A stretch of DNA of 64,000 nucleotides from Archaeoglobus sp. JdFR-27 (lineage in GTDB: Archaea > Halobacteriota > Archaeoglobi > Archaeoglobales > Archaeoglobaceae). The stretch lies in assembly GCA_002011235.1 (NCBI GenBank), contig MTMO01000012.1, forward strand, positions 1 to 64,000. The letters are read 5' to 3'. Numbering within the stretch: position 1 is the stretch's first letter; the number at the start of each line of letters is the position of its first letter. Shown piece by piece: positions 24,407 to 46,614 of the stretch. The notes beneath the pieces are model-generated. The model did not search any database. It had not been told where the DNA came from and saw only the letters and a program-made list of their open reading frames with translations. The position numbers and the translations under genes were made by a program.

Positions 24407-24760
24407 CTACCTTACAAGATGAAAAATCTTGTTAATTATCGCAAAAGTTACGAAAACGTCATTTCCGACGGCATCGCAAATCACTATCTTTTTCCGCTTT
24501 GAAGTCTCAGCCGTTTCTATAAGCTCAGGAATGTTTTCAGACACATGATAGCCTGGAGATATGAACAAAGGAACGATGAAAATAGTCTCACTTTTCATAG
24601 AATCAATGACCTCGGCAAGGGTTGGACTTCCCACTTCAACAAAGGCGATTTCAACTTCCTCAAAAACTCCGAGCTTTTCAATTCTTTTTTTATGTAGTGT
24701 AAGCACATTTTTGAAGTCCGAAGACTTGCTTCCGTGACCAGCGATTACCAATCCCTTCAC
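24407..24760 (-). CDS. cbiX: Short sirohydrochlorin cobaltochelatase
   Basis: 117-aa single-domain CbiX(S), inserting Co2+ (or another metal) into sirohydrochlorin, the branch to cobalamin; related short chelatases also act in siroheme or F430 routes. Metal-binding histidines are in GHGSKS and SPGYHVSENIPE. The short form is the archaeal homodimeric type. The corrinoid protein CdhD/E and the siroheme reductase in this window both need products of this branch point. Confidence 0.85.
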   Translation of the reverse strand: MKGLVIAGHGSKSSDFKNVLTLHKKRIEKLGVFEEVEIAFVEVGSPTLAEVIDSMKSETIFIVPLFISPGYHVSENIPELIETAETSKRKKIVICDAVGNDVFVTFAIINKIFHLVR

Positions 24761-24859: not shown

Positions 24860-25377
24860 TTTCCAAATCTTATAGCTTGTCTTGAATCGGTAAGAGGTTC
24901 TTATGTGCGAATTTCAGAAGGACTTCGCTAACACGTGTTCGTCAAGTTCCATTTCTGCCCGTTCTGAGGTCCAAAAATTCCATTCGTCTCTCCACATAAT
25001 GTAGTGGGCGTTGGGAAAAGCTGGTTGCCCTCGGCGTCTGTGTCCCCGCCGATATGATCTGGATGTCCATGTGTAAGGATAACTGTATCAATGTCTCCAG
25101 GTGCAATCCCTTCAGCCTGCATGTTCTGAAGGAGTCTTCCTGTATTTGGACCTAAAGCATCCGCACCCGTATCCACAAGCACCCGATGCTCACCCGTATT
25201 GACCGCCAAACAAATATACAGATTTATCCACTCGACCCACTGTTCTGGCTGTAAATTGTGTCCTCGAAGCACCTGATCAAGACGTTCTTTTGATGCGTTG
25301 GCGAAAAGAAAGGTAGCAGGGGGTGGAAAAGTAGGTGGTGAGTATGCGTGTGCCGTCGCTGACGGCAATGCATTCAA
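24860..25377 (-). pseudogene. Broken metallo-beta-lactamase fold hydrolase, bacterial-like
   Basis: The first part (25377 to about 24980) reads as an MBL domain with LVDTGA, the THGHPDHIGG zinc motif and a Pro/Ala-rich N-terminus. The frame then slips. Downstream in another frame is DEWNFWTSERAEMELDEHVL, and in a third KFAHKNLLPIQDKL, which are the expected next blocks of the family, before a stop. The C-terminal half with the remaining metal ligands is missing. Base and codon use (GC-rich, CCC/GCC codons) differ from neighbours, suggesting transfer and decay. Confidence 0.75.
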
Positions 25378-27723: not shown

Positions 27724-27736
27724 TTAACGGTGTTAA
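27724..27736. promoter_or_regulatory. TTAACGGTGTTAA palindrome over the start of the sulfur-carrier operon
   Basis: Perfect TTAAC-N3-GTTAA dyad whose last base is the first base of the ATG at 27736. An AT-rich TATA-like stretch (ATTATTAATAC) lies about 22-30 bases earlier, so the palindrome covers the predicted initiation site of a leaderless mRNA, the expected place for a repressor. Near-identical sites occur at 36390, 43731 and 44621. Confidence 0.65.
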
Positions 27737-28923
27737 TGTTGCGATGTATGATATGCAAAAAAGAAATAGAGGATTTGCCAAGCTATATCTGCCCGAGATG
27801 CTTTGGACCGCTAGAAGTTGTCTACGACTGGGAACAGATTAAAGAGAGAGTTAGTAGAGAGAAAATAGAGAGAGGAGTGGAAAGTATGTGGAGATACAAA
27901 GATTTCCTTCCAGTAAACAGAGAACCGGTTGATTTGGGAGCTGGTTTCACAAGGTTCATTCACGCTAAAAACCTTGGAGAGATTCTGGGATTGAAGAATC
28001 TTTACCTTCTTGATGACTCAACCAATCCGACCTATTCCTTTAAGGACAGAGTGGTAAGCGTGGCTGTAACAAAAGCTTTAGAGTTCAAGATGAGAGCTTT
28101 GGGATGCGCCTCAACAGGAAATCTCGCAGGAAGCCTCGCAGCCCACGCTGCTAAGGTAAAGCTACCCACATACATATTCGTCCCGGCTGGGATAGAAAAA
28201 ACAAAGATTGTTCAGGCTGCCGTTCATGGAGCGAATATAATTGAGGTCGAAGGAAGTTATGATGATGCGAACAGAATCGCGATGGAAATGGCTGAAAACA
28301 ACCCGGATTGGGGTTTTGTTAATATTAATCTCCGCCCGTATTATGTAGAGGGGAGTAAAACCCTTGCCTATGAAGCTGTCGAAAGACTGGATTGGAGGTC
28401 GCCAGATCAGGTTATACTACCAATGGCATCAGGGGCTTTGTTGACTTCTGTTTACAAGGGCTTTCAGGACTTTATAAAGGTTGGATTAACCGATACAATT
28501 CCGATTTTTAACGGTGCACAGCCAGAGGGTTTTCCGATCGTAAGAGCTGTTAGGGAGAAAGCCGAAATCAAACCATTAAAGGAGTCTCAAACCATCGTCC
28601 ACAGCCTTGCTATAGGGAATCCCGCCAACGGTTTTACTGCAAAAGATATAATAGAGGAGACCAGAGGATACGCTGAAGATCCATCAGACAGGGAAGTCGT
28701 CGACTCTGTGCTTCTCCTTGCAAAGACTGAAGGTATTTTCACAGAGCTTGCAGGAGGAACGGTTATTGCAGCTCTCAAAAGATTGGTTGAAGCTGGCAGA
28801 ATTGATAGGAGTGAGGTTATAGTCGCGTATCTGACAGGCAACGGGCTTAAAACAGCAGATGTCTTTCTAAATGAATTTTCTGTTAGAAAAGTTTCGAAAT
28901 ATGAGGAGGTGATAGCGTGGTGA
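27736..28923 (+). CDS. Threonine-synthase-like PLP enzyme of a sulfur-carrier operon
   Basis: About 395 aa. An N-terminal zinc ribbon (RCMICKKE, CPRCFG) and fold-type II core with PLP lysine in NPTYSFKDRVV and CASTGNLAGSLA place it in the ThrC family. It diverges from the thrC at 95-1279 (for example TYSFKD for SGSFKD). It is followed with a 7-base overlap by a MoaD/ThiS-like protein, then E1-like and TusA genes. By analogy with CysM-CysO and with protein-thiocarboxylate-dependent homocysteine synthesis, I infer beta/gamma-replacement using thiocarboxylate sulfur to make cysteine or homocysteine; plain threonine synthase is the alternative. Start ATG 27736 (GTG 27730 possible). Confidence 0.8.
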   Translation: MLRCMICKKEIEDLPSYICPRCFGPLEVVYDWEQIKERVSREKIERGVESMWRYKDFLPVNREPVDLGAGFTRFIHAKNLGEILGLKNLYLLDDSTNPTYSFKDRVVSVAVTKALEFKMRALGCASTGNLAGSLAAHAAKVKLPTYIFVPAGIEKTKIVQAAVHGANIIEVEGSYDDANRIAMEMAENNPDWGFVNINLRPYYVEGSKTLAYEAVERLDWRSPDQVILPMASGALLTSVYKGFQDFIKVGLTDTIPIFNGAQPEGFPIVRAVREKAEIKPLKESQTIVHSLAIGNPANGFTAKDIIEETRGYAEDPSDREVVDSVLLLAKTEGIFTELAGGTVIAALKRLVEAGRIDRSEVIVAYLTGNGLKTADVFLNEFSVRKVSKYEEVIAW

Positions 28924-29186
28924 AGATAGTCTACCCTATAATTCTCGCCGCCGTTACAAGGAAAAAAGAGGAGGAGGTGGAGTTCAGCGGAGATGTTGAG
29001 GCGCTTATCAACTTTCTGTGCGAGAAGTACAAAGGATTGAAAAAGGTACTCTATAATAAAGAGGGATTTAACAAATTCATTAATATCTATGTAAACAACG
29101 AAGATATAAGAAATCTTAACGGTTTCGAGACTGAGGTAAAAGCAAACGATACGGTAAAGTTCATACCAGCCATTGCCGGAGGGTAA
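28917..29186 (+). CDS. MoaD/ThiS-family ubiquitin-like sulfur carrier
   Basis: 89-aa beta-grasp protein ending in AIAGG; the C-terminal Gly-Gly is the site of adenylation and thiocarboxylation. GTG start with a very strong GAGGAGGTGAT upstream, overlapping the PLP enzyme gene. The E1-like activator follows after one base. Context points to delivery of sulfur to the upstream PLP enzyme rather than to molybdopterin, although Mo/W cofactor use (Fwd) in the same cell keeps MoaD possible. Confidence 0.85.
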   Translation: MVKIVYPIILAAVTRKKEEEVEFSGDVEALINFLCEKYKGLKKVLYNKEGFNKFINIYVNNEDIRNLNGFETEVKANDTVKFIPAIAGG

Positions 29187-29187
29187 G

Positions 29188-29988
29188 ATGTCTGATATTA
29201 TATTAACCCAAGAACAAATAAAGAGATATGCCAGACAACTAATTATGCCCGAAATCGGAGGTAAAGGGCAGGTTAAGCTTTTAAAATCGAAGGCAATTGT
29301 AGTTGGTGCTGGAGGACTAGGAAGCGCCGCTATTCAGTATCTTGCTGGAGCTGGCGTGGGAAAGATAGGCATAGTCGATGGAGACAGCGTGGACATAACC
29401 AATCTTCAAAGACAAACAATCCATGCCGGAAATCTCGGGATGAACAAAGCGGAATCGGCAGCCAAGTTTGTAAAAACCCTCAATCCAGATGTTGAGGTTG
29501 AAGTTTATCCTGAAAATGTAAATGTAAACAACGTAAGAGATATCATAAGAGAATACGACGTCGTAGTTGACTGTACCGATAACTTTCCATCTAGATTTCT
29601 CCTCAACGATGCCTGCGTAATGGAAAAAATCCCCCTTGTCCACTCTGCTGTGCTTAGATTCATAGGAGAGATAATGACAATAGTCCCAGATTCTGCATGC
29701 TATAGATGTGTTTTCCCAGAAGCTCCACCGCCCGGTTCAGTCCCCTCATGCCAAGAAGCTGGTATAGCGGGGGTGGCAACAGGAATATTCGGAGTTATGC
29801 AGGCTACCGAGGCAATAAAACTGATCCTTGGTTTAGAGATTCTTGAGAACAAAATGCTCTATGCTGATCTTTTAACCATGGAATTTGATTTGATAGACAT
29901 TCGTAAAGACAGGAACTGCCCCGTTTGCAGTGGGAAAGTGAAAGATCTTCAGGAGGAGTCGTATGTTGAGACATGCAGAATTGAATGA
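29188..29988 (+). CDS. E1-like sulfur-carrier adenylyltransferase (ThiF/MoeB/HesA family)
   Basis: 266 aa from ATG 29188, with GGAGGG in the end of the preceding gene; TTG 29173 is unlikely. The Rossmann nucleotide-binding motif GAGGLGSAAIQYLAGAGVG, DGDSVDITNLQRQ, the adenylation Asp in VVDCTDNFPSR, and a zinc site formed by CYRC and CPVC are intact. It should adenylate the GG tail of the carrier encoded one base upstream. A downstream Cys in SCQEAGIAG may form the acyl-disulfide. Confidence 0.9.
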   Translation: MSDIILTQEQIKRYARQLIMPEIGGKGQVKLLKSKAIVVGAGGLGSAAIQYLAGAGVGKIGIVDGDSVDITNLQRQTIHAGNLGMNKAESAAKFVKTLNPDVEVEVYPENVNVNNVRDIIREYDVVVDCTDNFPSRFLLNDACVMEKIPLVHSAVLRFIGEIMTIVPDSACYRCVFPEAPPPGSVPSCQEAGIAGVATGIFGVMQATEAIKLILGLEILENKMLYADLLTMEFDLIDIRKDRNCPVCSGKVKDLQEESYVETCRIE

Positions 29989-30244
29989 CTCGAATGACCG
30001 AATTGAAGTTCTTGATTTGAGAGATGAGAACTGTCCTTTCACCTTTATAAAAACGAAGCTGAAACTTGAAGAAATGAAAAAAGGTGAGGAGTTGAAGGTT
30101 ATTTTTTCCGATGAAGTAACAGCTAGAGATGTTGCAAAAAGTCTCACCTCAGAAGGGCATGAGGTACTTGAAGTGCTTGAAATACATGGGGCACAATTGA
30201 AAGGTATTGATGGTTGGATGCTCAGGGTGAGATGTGGGCGTTGA
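29963..30244 (+). CDS. TusA/SirA-family sulfur-relay protein with altered CPxP motif
   Basis: 93 aa; the TusA core runs from residue 13. The sulfur-carrying cysteine is kept in ENCPFTFIKTKL, but the second proline of CPxP is threonine. GGAGGAG precedes the ATG, which lies inside the E1-like gene (26-base overlap). Predicted to pass persulfide sulfur into the carrier system. A second TusA with a canonical CPFP lies at 45965 beside the siroheme reductase. Confidence 0.82.
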   Translation: MLRHAELNDSNDRIEVLDLRDENCPFTFIKTKLKLEEMKKGEELKVIFSDEVTARDVAKSLTSEGHEVLEVLEIHGAQLKGIDGWMLRVRCGR

Positions 30245-43746: not shown

Positions 43747-44624
43747 GTGATAGGGCAGTTGATAATAGCCTTCCGAGAAGGGTTTGAGGCAATTCTTCTG
43801 GTCTCAATACTCATAACATACCTAAGAAAGACGAGGAGAGAGAGTTTTATAAAAGATGCTTACTATGGAGTTGTTCTTGCAATAACAGTTGGAGCAGTCA
43901 TTTCGCTGTTAGTGGTAAAATTTTACAGAGGATTTGAAAACAAAGAGCTCTTTGAGGGTATAACAGCATTGCTTGCAGCAGCAGTTCTTACCTCGATGAT
44001 TACTGGATGGGAACAAAAGGTTCATCATTAGAAAATGAGATTAAAAGAAAAGTTGACTCAGGGAAAACATCCCTTGCTATCTTAGCCGTAGCTTTCTTCT
44101 TCACAATCAGAGAGGTTGTTGAAACGATACTTTTTCTCATACCTTTCGCAACCATAGATATTCTTACAACCGCTGCAGCAGCAGTTTCAGGATTGATCCT
44201 TGCAGTTTTATTCTCCCTATTCATCTCAAGTTCAATTATGAAAGTCGATTTGAAGAATTTTTTCTACTATTCAAGCCTTCTACTAATTCTTATCGCAGGT
44301 GGGCTTGTAGGATACGGTGTTCATGAACTACTTGAATATTCAAAAGAGATGGGCTTTGAGAATTTCCTGCATGCCACCGCATTTGATCTCAAAGTTGATG
44401 AGAACTCCCTAATCCACCATAAGAACATCATAGGATCTTTCTTTGCAGTGACGTTTGGATATACTGTTAAAGCCGAGGTTGGAAGGGTCGTGACACATCT
44501 TCTTTACCTTTCAATAGCATTTCCAATCGTTTTTAGAGTTTATGCAGGCAGAAGGTTATCCATGGAGTGGAGAAAAGTTTTAAGTGTATATTCCAGAAAA
44601 GCAACCAATAACATAAAAAATTAA
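43747..44624 (+). pseudogene. FTR1-family iron/metal permease, interrupted by a one-base frameshift
   Basis: Iron permease family (about 292 aa if repaired). The first part has the REGFEA motif in helix 1 and runs to VLTSMITG. The second, in another frame, begins WMGTKGSSLENEIKRKVD and has the second motif REVVET. Adding one T after 44004 gives SMITWMGTKGSSLENEIK, the conserved FTR1 arrangement. Both REGxE-like metal sites are otherwise present. Without an FTR1 oxidase partner nearby, Fe2+/Fe3+ or other metal uptake is open. Its stop codon lies inside the next palindrome. Confidence 0.85.
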
Positions 44625-44664: not shown

Positions 44665-45981
44665 ATGTTAGAAATCGAGGCAGATTTCCTCTCCAAGTTT
44701 ATAGGAAAGTATTCATTAGGAAAAGACGGAGGTAATGGATCTTCTCACTTCTTAAGAATAAAAATTCCAGGTGGAGTTTTGAATTGTGATAGTCTGATGG
44801 AAATAGCCGATCTTTCAGATGAGTTTGGCAGGGGTTATGCTGAGATAACGGATCGTCAAGATATTCAACTCCACTGGATAGATCCAGATACGGCGATTGA
44901 AATTTTTGAGAGACTTTACAAGATGGGTTTTACCACAGACTTGTGTGGCCAAGCCTTCAGGGAAACCTGCCACGGAGATGTCAGAAATGTTGTTTGTTGC
45001 CCTCTCATGGGTAAAATCAGCCCCGATCTCGGTCAATTGGTTAAAAAAATCAATGATTTCTTTACTGGAAACGAGAGGTATATAACTCTCCCCCACAAGT
45101 TCAAAATAGCCATCACCGCATGTAGAAACGATTGCGTTAAGCTCTTTGCAAATGATCTTTCCCTGTTCTGGGTAGGGGATGGATTTATACCTCTGGTAGG
45201 GGGAGGTATGGGAGTTTCTCTTCCTGGAGTGAGATTCGCCGAACCCATGGAAATAAAAGTATCCCTTGAGAGGGCTTTTGAGTTCGTAAAGACGGTTGTG
45301 GATATCCATAATGAATTTTCAAATACCCACTCAAAAGCAAAAGCGAGATTCAAACTGCTCGTTCACGAATGGGGTGTTGAAAAGCTAAGGGATGAGATAG
45401 AAAAAAGGATAGGAGCTTTTCCTGAAACTAGCATAACAAGAGAAATCGTAAAAGAAATCGGAATTGAACACACCCACGGAATCCAGAGTGATGGAAACTA
45501 CTTTTTTACGGTTCCAGTTCTGGGCGGAATTCTTGATTCTGATAAGCTTAGATTAGTTGCCGGTCTCAGCAAAGACTATGGCAACGGAGAAATACGCCTT
45601 ACCCTCTGGCAGAACATAACATTTGTTGATATCGAAGACGTTGAGACATTAAAAGCTGAGCTAGGAAAGCATTTCAACCTCGAAATTCCCCACAGAGCAG
45701 TTGGATGTCCATCGGACTTTTGCGGTAAGACTCTGGTTCACTCGAAGCAGATTGTAAAAGATATTATTCACAATCTAGCTTCTGATTTAAGCGTTGCCGT
45801 AAGCGGATGTGTGAATGGATGTGCCTGCCATCCACTTGCAGATATTGGACTCGTTGGAAAAATAAAGCATGGAGAACAGGTTTATGATTTGTACATCAGG
45901 GGAAAGTTAGTTAAAAAAGACATTAGACCAGAAAAAATTTTACTTTTCATAACGGAGGGATTACATGAAATTAAAGCTTGA
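44665..45981 (+). CDS. Siroheme/[4Fe-4S] sulfite or nitrite reductase family protein
   Basis: 438 aa with the two-fold ferredoxin-like/haem repeat of the sulfite/nitrite reductase family. In the first half are VVCCPLMGK and TACRNDC. In the second, GCPSDFCG and SGCVNGCACHPLADIGLVG supply probable cluster and siroheme-proximal cysteines. It is not DsrA or DsrB by context: no dsrB, dsrD or ferredoxin insert. TusA and DsrE genes follow, so assimilatory or detoxifying reduction of a sulfur compound, with delivery to a persulfide relay, is inferred. ATG follows a TATA box by about 20 bases (leaderless). Confidence 0.82.
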   Translation: MLEIEADFLSKFIGKYSLGKDGGNGSSHFLRIKIPGGVLNCDSLMEIADLSDEFGRGYAEITDRQDIQLHWIDPDTAIEIFERLYKMGFTTDLCGQAFRETCHGDVRNVVCCPLMGKISPDLGQLVKKINDFFTGNERYITLPHKFKIAITACRNDCVKLFANDLSLFWVGDGFIPLVGGGMGVSLPGVRFAEPMEIKVSLERAFEFVKTVVDIHNEFSNTHSKAKARFKLLVHEWGVEKLRDEIEKRIGAFPETSITREIVKEIGIEHTHGIQSDGNYFFTVPVLGGILDSDKLRLVAGLSKDYGNGEIRLTLWQNITFVDIEDVETLKAELGKHFNLEIPHRAVGCPSDFCGKTLVHSKQIVKDIIHNLASDLSVAVSGCVNGCACHPLADIGLVGKIKHGEQVYDLYIRGKLVKKDIRPEKILLFITEGLHEIKA

Positions 45982-46210
45982 AAAGAAGGGTGAAAGATAT
46001 ATCTTGGATTGTAGAGATCTAACATGTCCATTTCCACTAACCATGACCAAGCTTGCGTTAAAAAAGGTAAGTAAGCTAGAGGTTATCACCAACAACCCTC
46101 CATCGGCAAAAGATATTCCTGAGTTACTTACCAAACAGGGTTATAAAGTTGATGTAAATAGAGAAGACGGTCTTTGGAGGATTTTTATTCAAAAAAACGA
46201 AGATCGATAA
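45965..46210 (+). CDS. tusA: TusA-family sulfur-relay protein
   Basis: 81 aa with canonical CPFP in RDLTCPFPLTMTKLAL. The ATG overlaps the reductase gene by 17 bases and has GGAGG upstream, so they are translated together. It should carry a persulfide from or to the reductase and the DsrE-like protein that follows. Confidence 0.88.
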   Translation: MKLKLEKKGERYILDCRDLTCPFPLTMTKLALKKVSKLEVITNNPPSAKDIPELLTKQGYKVDVNREDGLWRIFIQKNEDR

Positions 46211-46239: not shown

Positions 46240-46614
46240 ATGCCCAGCATAATTATTCACAGTGGTGATTGGGACAGGATATACCATGGTCTGAATATAG
46301 CCTCCATGTACGCTTTTTTTGATAAAAAAGTCACAGTCTTTCTTACCTATTGGGCGGTTCAAACTATTGTTAAAGGAGAAGTGATTTCAGAAGGGGGAAA
46401 TGCTGAAATAATTAAGAATGGAATCCAAACAGGGATAATAAAAAGACTTGAGGATGTTGCAAAGATAGCAAAGTCTATTGGAAACGTTAAGATAACCGCA
46501 TGCGTAACGACACTCAAACTCCTTGGTATCGATGAAAAAGAACTCCCAAGCTGGGTCGATGGAGTGGGTGGACTTGCAGAGGCTCTTTCAACCGATAATG
46601 TCATATTCATCTAA
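46240..46614 (+). CDS. DsrE-like sulfur-transfer protein
   Basis: 124-aa DsrE/F-like fold protein: N-terminal SIIIHSGDWDRIYHGLNIA, FFDKKVTVFLTYWAV, and a conserved Cys in VKITACVTTLKLLGI, the probable sulfur-accepting residue. AAAGGAGAAAC precedes the ATG. With TusA it forms a two-step relay as in known sulfur-trafficking systems. Confidence 0.82.
   Translation: MPSIIIHSGDWDRIYHGLNIASMYAFFDKKVTVFLTYWAVQTIVKGEVISEGGNAEIIKNGIQTGIIKRLEDVAKIAKSIGNVKITACVTTLKLLGIDEKELPSWVDGVGGLAEALSTDNVIFI

Follow-up and report, generated by a model that had tools for sequence, protein, structure and literature searches.

Organization and conservation of the gene cluster

The window, meaning the whole stretch of 64,000 nucleotides analyzed here, carries four genes on the forward strand between positions 27736 and 30244, which encode a ThrC-like enzyme, a MoaD/ThiS-like protein, an E1 of the ThiF/MoeB type and TusA. 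These genes, together with a threonine synthase gene used for comparison, are as follows.

27736-28923, + strand: ThrC-family PLP enzyme, MetM-like, 395 aa (PALP and TIGR00260 profiles); predicted O-phosphohomoserine sulfhydrylase/homocysteine synthase
28917-29186, + strand: MoaD/ThiS-like sulfur carrier, 89 aa, C-terminal GG (ThiS profile); predicted MetO-like thiocarboxylate donor
29188-29988, + strand: E1-like adenylyltransferase of the ThiF/MoeB/UbaA type (ThiF profile); predicted to adenylate the carrier C-terminus
29963-30244, + strand: TusA-like sulfurtransferase with a Cys-Pro motif (TusA profile); predicted persulfide donor to the adenylated carrier
95-1279, - strand: housekeeping threonine synthase outside the operon, the comparison gene (TIGR00260 and tree)

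The packing given in the preliminary description, a 7-base overlap followed by a 1-base gap and a 26-base overlap, was exact when checked against the ORF coordinates. In a Pfam search each of the four products scored above the curated cut-off (PALP 218 bits, ThiS 47 bits, ThiF 274 bits and TusA 64 bits), and the expected motifs are present, with the PLP lysine in NPTYSFKDR (K103) of the ThrC-like enzyme, GAGGLG, SCQE and two CxxC motifs in the E1, and a CPF motif in TusA that is common to the TusA proteins of relatives at the same place. No rhodanese domain was found in the E1 by profile search. The carrier gene has a GTG start and its product ends in AIAGG, whilst AGGAGG precedes the TusA-like gene. 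The host genome measures 2.36 Mb and is 99.7% complete, and its named relatives in the sample are Archaeoglobus, Geoglobus and Ferroglobus MAGs.

A search with the ThrC-like protein across 295 genomes from the phylum set 30 proteins apart, the window's own and 29 others at 53–78% identity to it, with the remaining matches listed at ≤42%. A MoaD-type gene lies directly 3' of the ThrC-like gene in all 30 of these loci, which argues that the linkage is not due to chance. With 7–14 kb read per locus, the E1 was found in 24 and TusA in 26 of the 30; in one family the E1 gene belongs to the operon and in another it is divergently transcribed, so the association has survived rearrangement. The four-gene cluster is a real, conserved operon. 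More widely, the carrier gene occurs in 72 of 79 readable named loci from archaea and bacteria, with carrier-linked taxa including Methanoperedens, Methanococcoides, Halorutilus, Bathyarchaeota, Nitrososphaerota, SAR202/Chloroflexi, Bacillota and Acidimicrobiia. The ThrC-like protein of the window is a member of a separate subfamily that extends from archaea to Chloroflexi and Actinomycetota.

The carrier itself varies across these loci. In seven Nitrososphaerota loci (L149, L151, L152, L154, L156, L157 and L158) it is joined to the E1 N-terminus through an internal GG, so that its tail would need to be cleaved, or would have to act in place. Other carriers have one to four residues past the GG, for example SGGSL or GGKD (L065, L071, L132, L133, L135, L138, L140, L142 and others), which implies a processing peptidase, whereas the window carrier terminates in GG.

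Distinction from threonine synthase

The product of 27736-28923 scores 303 bits with the threonine synthase model TIGR00260, against a cut-off of 167, and the product of 95-1279 scores 346 bits. The preliminary description had taken the latter as the true ThrC and called for a phylogeny to separate the two, and a maximum-likelihood tree of 65 proteins does so: the ThrC-like protein falls into a clade of 41 members (support 100/100), and the 95-1279 protein into an archaeal ThrC clade of 22 members (support 96/100). The housekeeping threonine synthase is encoded at 95-1279 and not at 27736-28923.

The clades also differ at the positions aligned to T88, S155, N157, R160, N188, R242, S290 and A291 of Thermus thermophilus ThrC, where the window's ThrC-like protein has L130, N198, R200, Y203, S232, A292, G340 and G341. 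Residues T88, S155, R160, N188 and R242 are kept in all 22 ThrC proteins, that of 95-1279 included, and are replaced as in the window (L130, N198, Y203, S232 and A292) in nearly all 41 members of the MetM-like clade. In ThrC structures, several of these residues surround or bind the substrate phosphate, and the phosphate ion that is retained assists the addition of water.

At least one further ThrC-like protein is present in 28 of the 30 cluster genomes, so the cluster enzyme is not needed for threonine. An AlphaFold model of the window protein (pLDDT 90) has threonine synthases as its nearest solved structures in a fold search; such a predicted fold fits common ancestry and does not discriminate between the two activities. 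The host genome encodes two extra ThrC-like PALP proteins, at L005 1393-2583 (contig C13) and L007 1420-2517 (contig C26), the second of which is very divergent and adjoins an alanine-racemase/D-threonine-aldolase-like gene.

The predicted product

SAM riboswitches control genes for methionine and SAM. A riboswitch of this kind (RF00162, 68.7–88.4 bits) immediately precedes the ThrC-like gene, in the same orientation, in six of the 12 bacterial loci examined (L140, L141, L145, L146, L148 and L159) and was the sole riboswitch found in those stretches, which indicates that the ThrC-like subfamily serves methionine. No riboswitch was seen ahead of the archaeal ThrC-like copies examined, and a riboswitch/RNA-family search returned no RNA element at the window locus; a Group I intron match there (E 0.32) was far below threshold and was dismissed as chance.

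Thiocarboxylated MetO is reportedly the sulfur donor in the MetM/MetO system of Streptomyces, and the abstract of the study concerned is said to mention archaea. According to a later paper (PMC12172450), Streptomyces MetM is a homocysteine synthase converting O-phosphohomoserine, with the sulfur-carrier gene metO beside it (Hasebe et al., 2024, AEM 90:e01247-24); metM of S. albulus has a SAM riboswitch upstream, and a cyanobacterial MetM homolog adjoins a metO-like gene annotated as a sulfur-carrier family protein. As described there, the system shares with the window the order of a ThrC-family enzyme and then a sulfur-carrier gene, and with bacterial members of the window's clade the SAM riboswitch. 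One such member in the tree is a homolog from Nonomuraea (Actinomycetes), a plasmid-collection sequence with both riboswitch and carrier. The substrate can likely be supplied in the host, where a protein matching the proposed homoserine kinase model TIGR02535 (475 bits against a cut-off of 446) appears to be a substitute homoserine kinase providing O-phosphohomoserine; no classical GHMP ThrB homoserine kinase was found in that genome.

Judged by gene content, conservation, phylogeny, riboswitch association and, in relatives, the setting among sulfate-assimilation genes, the four genes probably constitute an archaeal system of the MetM/MetO type for the synthesis of homocysteine, from which methionine is made. 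The preliminary description had offered two reactions, of which that from O-phosphohomoserine to homocysteine is probably right, being favoured by the riboswitches and the MetM/MetO precedent, whereas that from O-phosphoserine to cysteine is weaker with SepCysS present. It had left out that the carrier-fed homocysteine route is already described in bacteria, and that the host has a DUF39/NIL route as well. What is new in archaea is the dedicated E1, which has no rhodanese domain, and TusA, in an operon that differs from metM/metO also in being without a SAM riboswitch; relatives further add an assimilatory sulfate-reduction cluster and a second SepCysS. Standard models score the subfamily as threonine synthase, but its product is probably homocysteine, a role that would account for methionine synthesis where a lineage seems to have a gap in that pathway.

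That the enzyme is another threonine synthase, or a threonine deaminase, and that its operon partners work in tRNA thiolation or in making the Mo/W cofactor, is an unlikely alternative in spite of the TIGR00260 score. E1/MoaD pairs do commonly serve Moco and tRNA thiolation, and a Microcystis aeruginosa relative, 51.6% identical to MetM, is reported to make threonine from O-phosphohomoserine in vitro and to have threonine synthase and threonine deaminase activities (PMC12172450), so that threonine synthesis is conceivable here. However, the window has its own true ThrC, nearly all cluster genomes have another ThrC-like protein, the diagnostic ThrC residues are lost across the clade, and the riboswitches point elsewhere. 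The carrier is moreover inseparable from the ThrC-like paralog: the host genome encodes five ThiS-family proteins, the other four of which adjoin MoeA or tungsten AOR-type genes, and comparison of their neighbourhoods revealed no linkage of the 28917-29186 carrier to Mo/W cofactor genes.

Synthesis of cysteine from O-phosphoserine and the thiocarboxylated carrier, in the manner of CysM-CysO, would have to be judged quite improbable. Carrier-dependent cysteine synthesis is known, and cysteate synthase, a relative of ThrC, uses O-phosphoserine (Graham et al., 2009, as described in citing papers), but the window enzyme reaches only 62 bits with the cysteate synthase model TIGR03844, where the cut-off is 325, and identity as a cysteate synthase was rejected. 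The riboswitches ahead of bacterial members also indicate methionine rather than cysteine. SepCysS is present in 28 of the 30 cluster genomes; in 18 genomes a copy (TIGR02539, about 490–515 bits) shares the cluster's contig, no more than about 12 kb away and usually beside a DUF169 gene, as at G050:C10:37733-38863 (L195 7713-8879). In a congener of the host it comes immediately after TusA, and the host itself has a single SepCysS, on another contig. With SepCysS in the genome and near the cluster of relatives, cysteine has an enzyme of its own, and this weakens the cysteine reading.

That the enzyme turns O-phosphohomoserine or a similar phospho-amino acid into some other compound of sulfur or phosphorus, or draws on free sulfide or sulfite in place of the carrier, is highly improbable given the near-universal carrier linkage elsewhere and the dedicated archaeal E1 and TusA, although two Chloroflexi loci (L141 and L148) have the SAM riboswitch and ThrC-like gene with no carrier gene within 7 kb, suggesting that sulfide may serve in some members.

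Sulfur assimilation and the proposed mechanism

No sulfate-assimilation genes adjoin the four-gene cluster in the window, where part of such a set is instead located further along.

44665-45981, + strand: siroheme sulfite/nitrite-reductase-family protein (NIR_SIR and NIR_SIR_ferr)
45965-46210, + strand: second TusA, overlapping the reductase gene (similarity to the TusA following the reductase in relatives)
46240-46614, + strand: DsrE-like sulfur-relay protein (DrsE_2/DsrE)

Each of the three is closest to its counterpart beside the cluster of relatives. The reductase is 46–49% identical to that beside the ThrC-MoaD cluster in L192, L194, L204 and L206–L208, the TusA 49–59% identical to that after the reductase, and the DsrE-like protein 41–54% identical to that encoded just before the ThrC-like gene. 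The reductase probably supplies this pathway with sulfide or sulfane sulfur. Among relatives of the Ferroglobus and Geoglobus type, the cluster is accompanied by a siroheme sulfite reductase, TusA, an AprA-like flavoprotein and a ferredoxin, as well as ATP sulfurylase, a DsrE-like protein and a TauE-type exporter, and in Methanosarcinaceae-like genomes by a PAPS-reductase-family protein, a CysN-like GTPase and a substrate-binding protein. This setting among sulfate-assimilation genes, with a SepCysS copy, is a further difference from MetM/MetO; through the archaeal operon, methionine would be linked to the assimilation of sulfate and, among relatives, also to tRNA-dependent cysteine synthesis.

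In the proposed mechanism, the E1 would adenylate the C-terminal glycine of the MoaD-like carrier, and TusA, having received sulfur from the reductase-TusA-DsrE set or from a desulfurase, would turn the adenylated carrier into a thiocarboxylate. The ThrC-like enzyme would then eliminate phosphate from O-phosphohomoserine by PLP chemistry, and the carrier sulfur, in place of water, would be added at the gamma carbon to give homocysteine. The product may be either free homocysteine or a carrier-homocysteine adduct that is cut by a JAMM peptidase encoded elsewhere. There is no JAMM peptidase gene inside the cluster; JAMM genes are found elsewhere in the host genome (contigs C41, C13 and C17) and in all 30 cluster genomes. 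A broader idea, that one protein-bound relay of sulfite reductase, TusA and carrier-COSH supplies both homocysteine formation by the MetM-like enzyme and tRNA-dependent cysteine formation by the clustered SepCysS of relatives, with assimilated sulfur bypassing free sulfide, is unlikely, but if true it would name a donor for SepCysS.

Comparison with known routes to homocysteine and cysteine

The host genome also encodes HcyBio (DUF39) and its NIL/ferredoxin partner, which would make the four-gene cluster a second homocysteine route. The two have their end product in common but consist of unrelated proteins, the DUF39 route using aspartate semialdehyde and sulfide with no homoserine intermediate (PMC5764234). 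HcyBio is present in 23 of the 30 cluster genomes (77%), so there is no methionine gap for the cluster to fill in those, and as it is equally common in the whole sample (226 of 295), complementarity between the cluster and the DUF39 route was rejected. Both HcyBio and a PF01053 enzyme (E ≤ 1e-30) are absent from four cluster genomes (G209, G244, G199 and G263), which is suggestive of the cluster filling a methionine gap there, but these genomes are 81–95% complete and incompleteness could explain the absences. A MetB/MetY-type enzyme in the host genome was likewise rejected, with weak matches of 18–37 bits and none at E ≤ 1e-30. Where both routes exist, carrier-bound sulfur may be passed to methionine when free sulfide is scarce, alongside the sulfide-dependent DUF39/NIL route, and this raises the question of why a single cell should maintain both, the one fed by free sulfide and the other by carrier-bound sulfur.

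The thiocarboxylate-dependent HcyS route of Wolinella (Krishnamoorthy and Begley, 2011) shares the homocysteine product, and class 4e of Iyer et al. (2006; PMC1779556) shares the carrier, an E1 without rhodanese, SirA/TusA and sulfate-assimilation genes. In both, however, the PLP enzyme is an O-acetylhomoserine sulfhydrylase (MetY-type, PF01053) and not of the ThrC type, and systems of the HcyS-HcyD kind also differ in their JAMM gene, which the window cluster lacks. CysM-CysO-Mec resembles the operon in that a PALP enzyme of fold type II takes its sulfur from a thiocarboxylated carrier, as predicted here, but the window's PALP subfamily is ThrC rather than CysK/M, its predicted product is homocysteine, and no Mec-like JAMM is linked. 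A 2010 survey of ubiquitin-like proteins in archaea (PMC2948915) makes no mention in its main text of a link to threonine synthase.

Other genes in the vicinity

Near the cluster, a small gene at 24407-24760 (- strand) encodes a CbiX-type chelatase that could make siroheme for the sulfite reductase, and a metallo-beta-lactamase-fold ORF at 24928-25377 (- strand, 149 aa) matches the start of its domain only and looks truncated. An EfeU/Ftr1-type iron permease at 43747-44624 (+ strand) appears to be split between two frames, 43747-44031 and 44007-44624, which match successive parts of TIGR00145, through a frameshift or a sequencing error.
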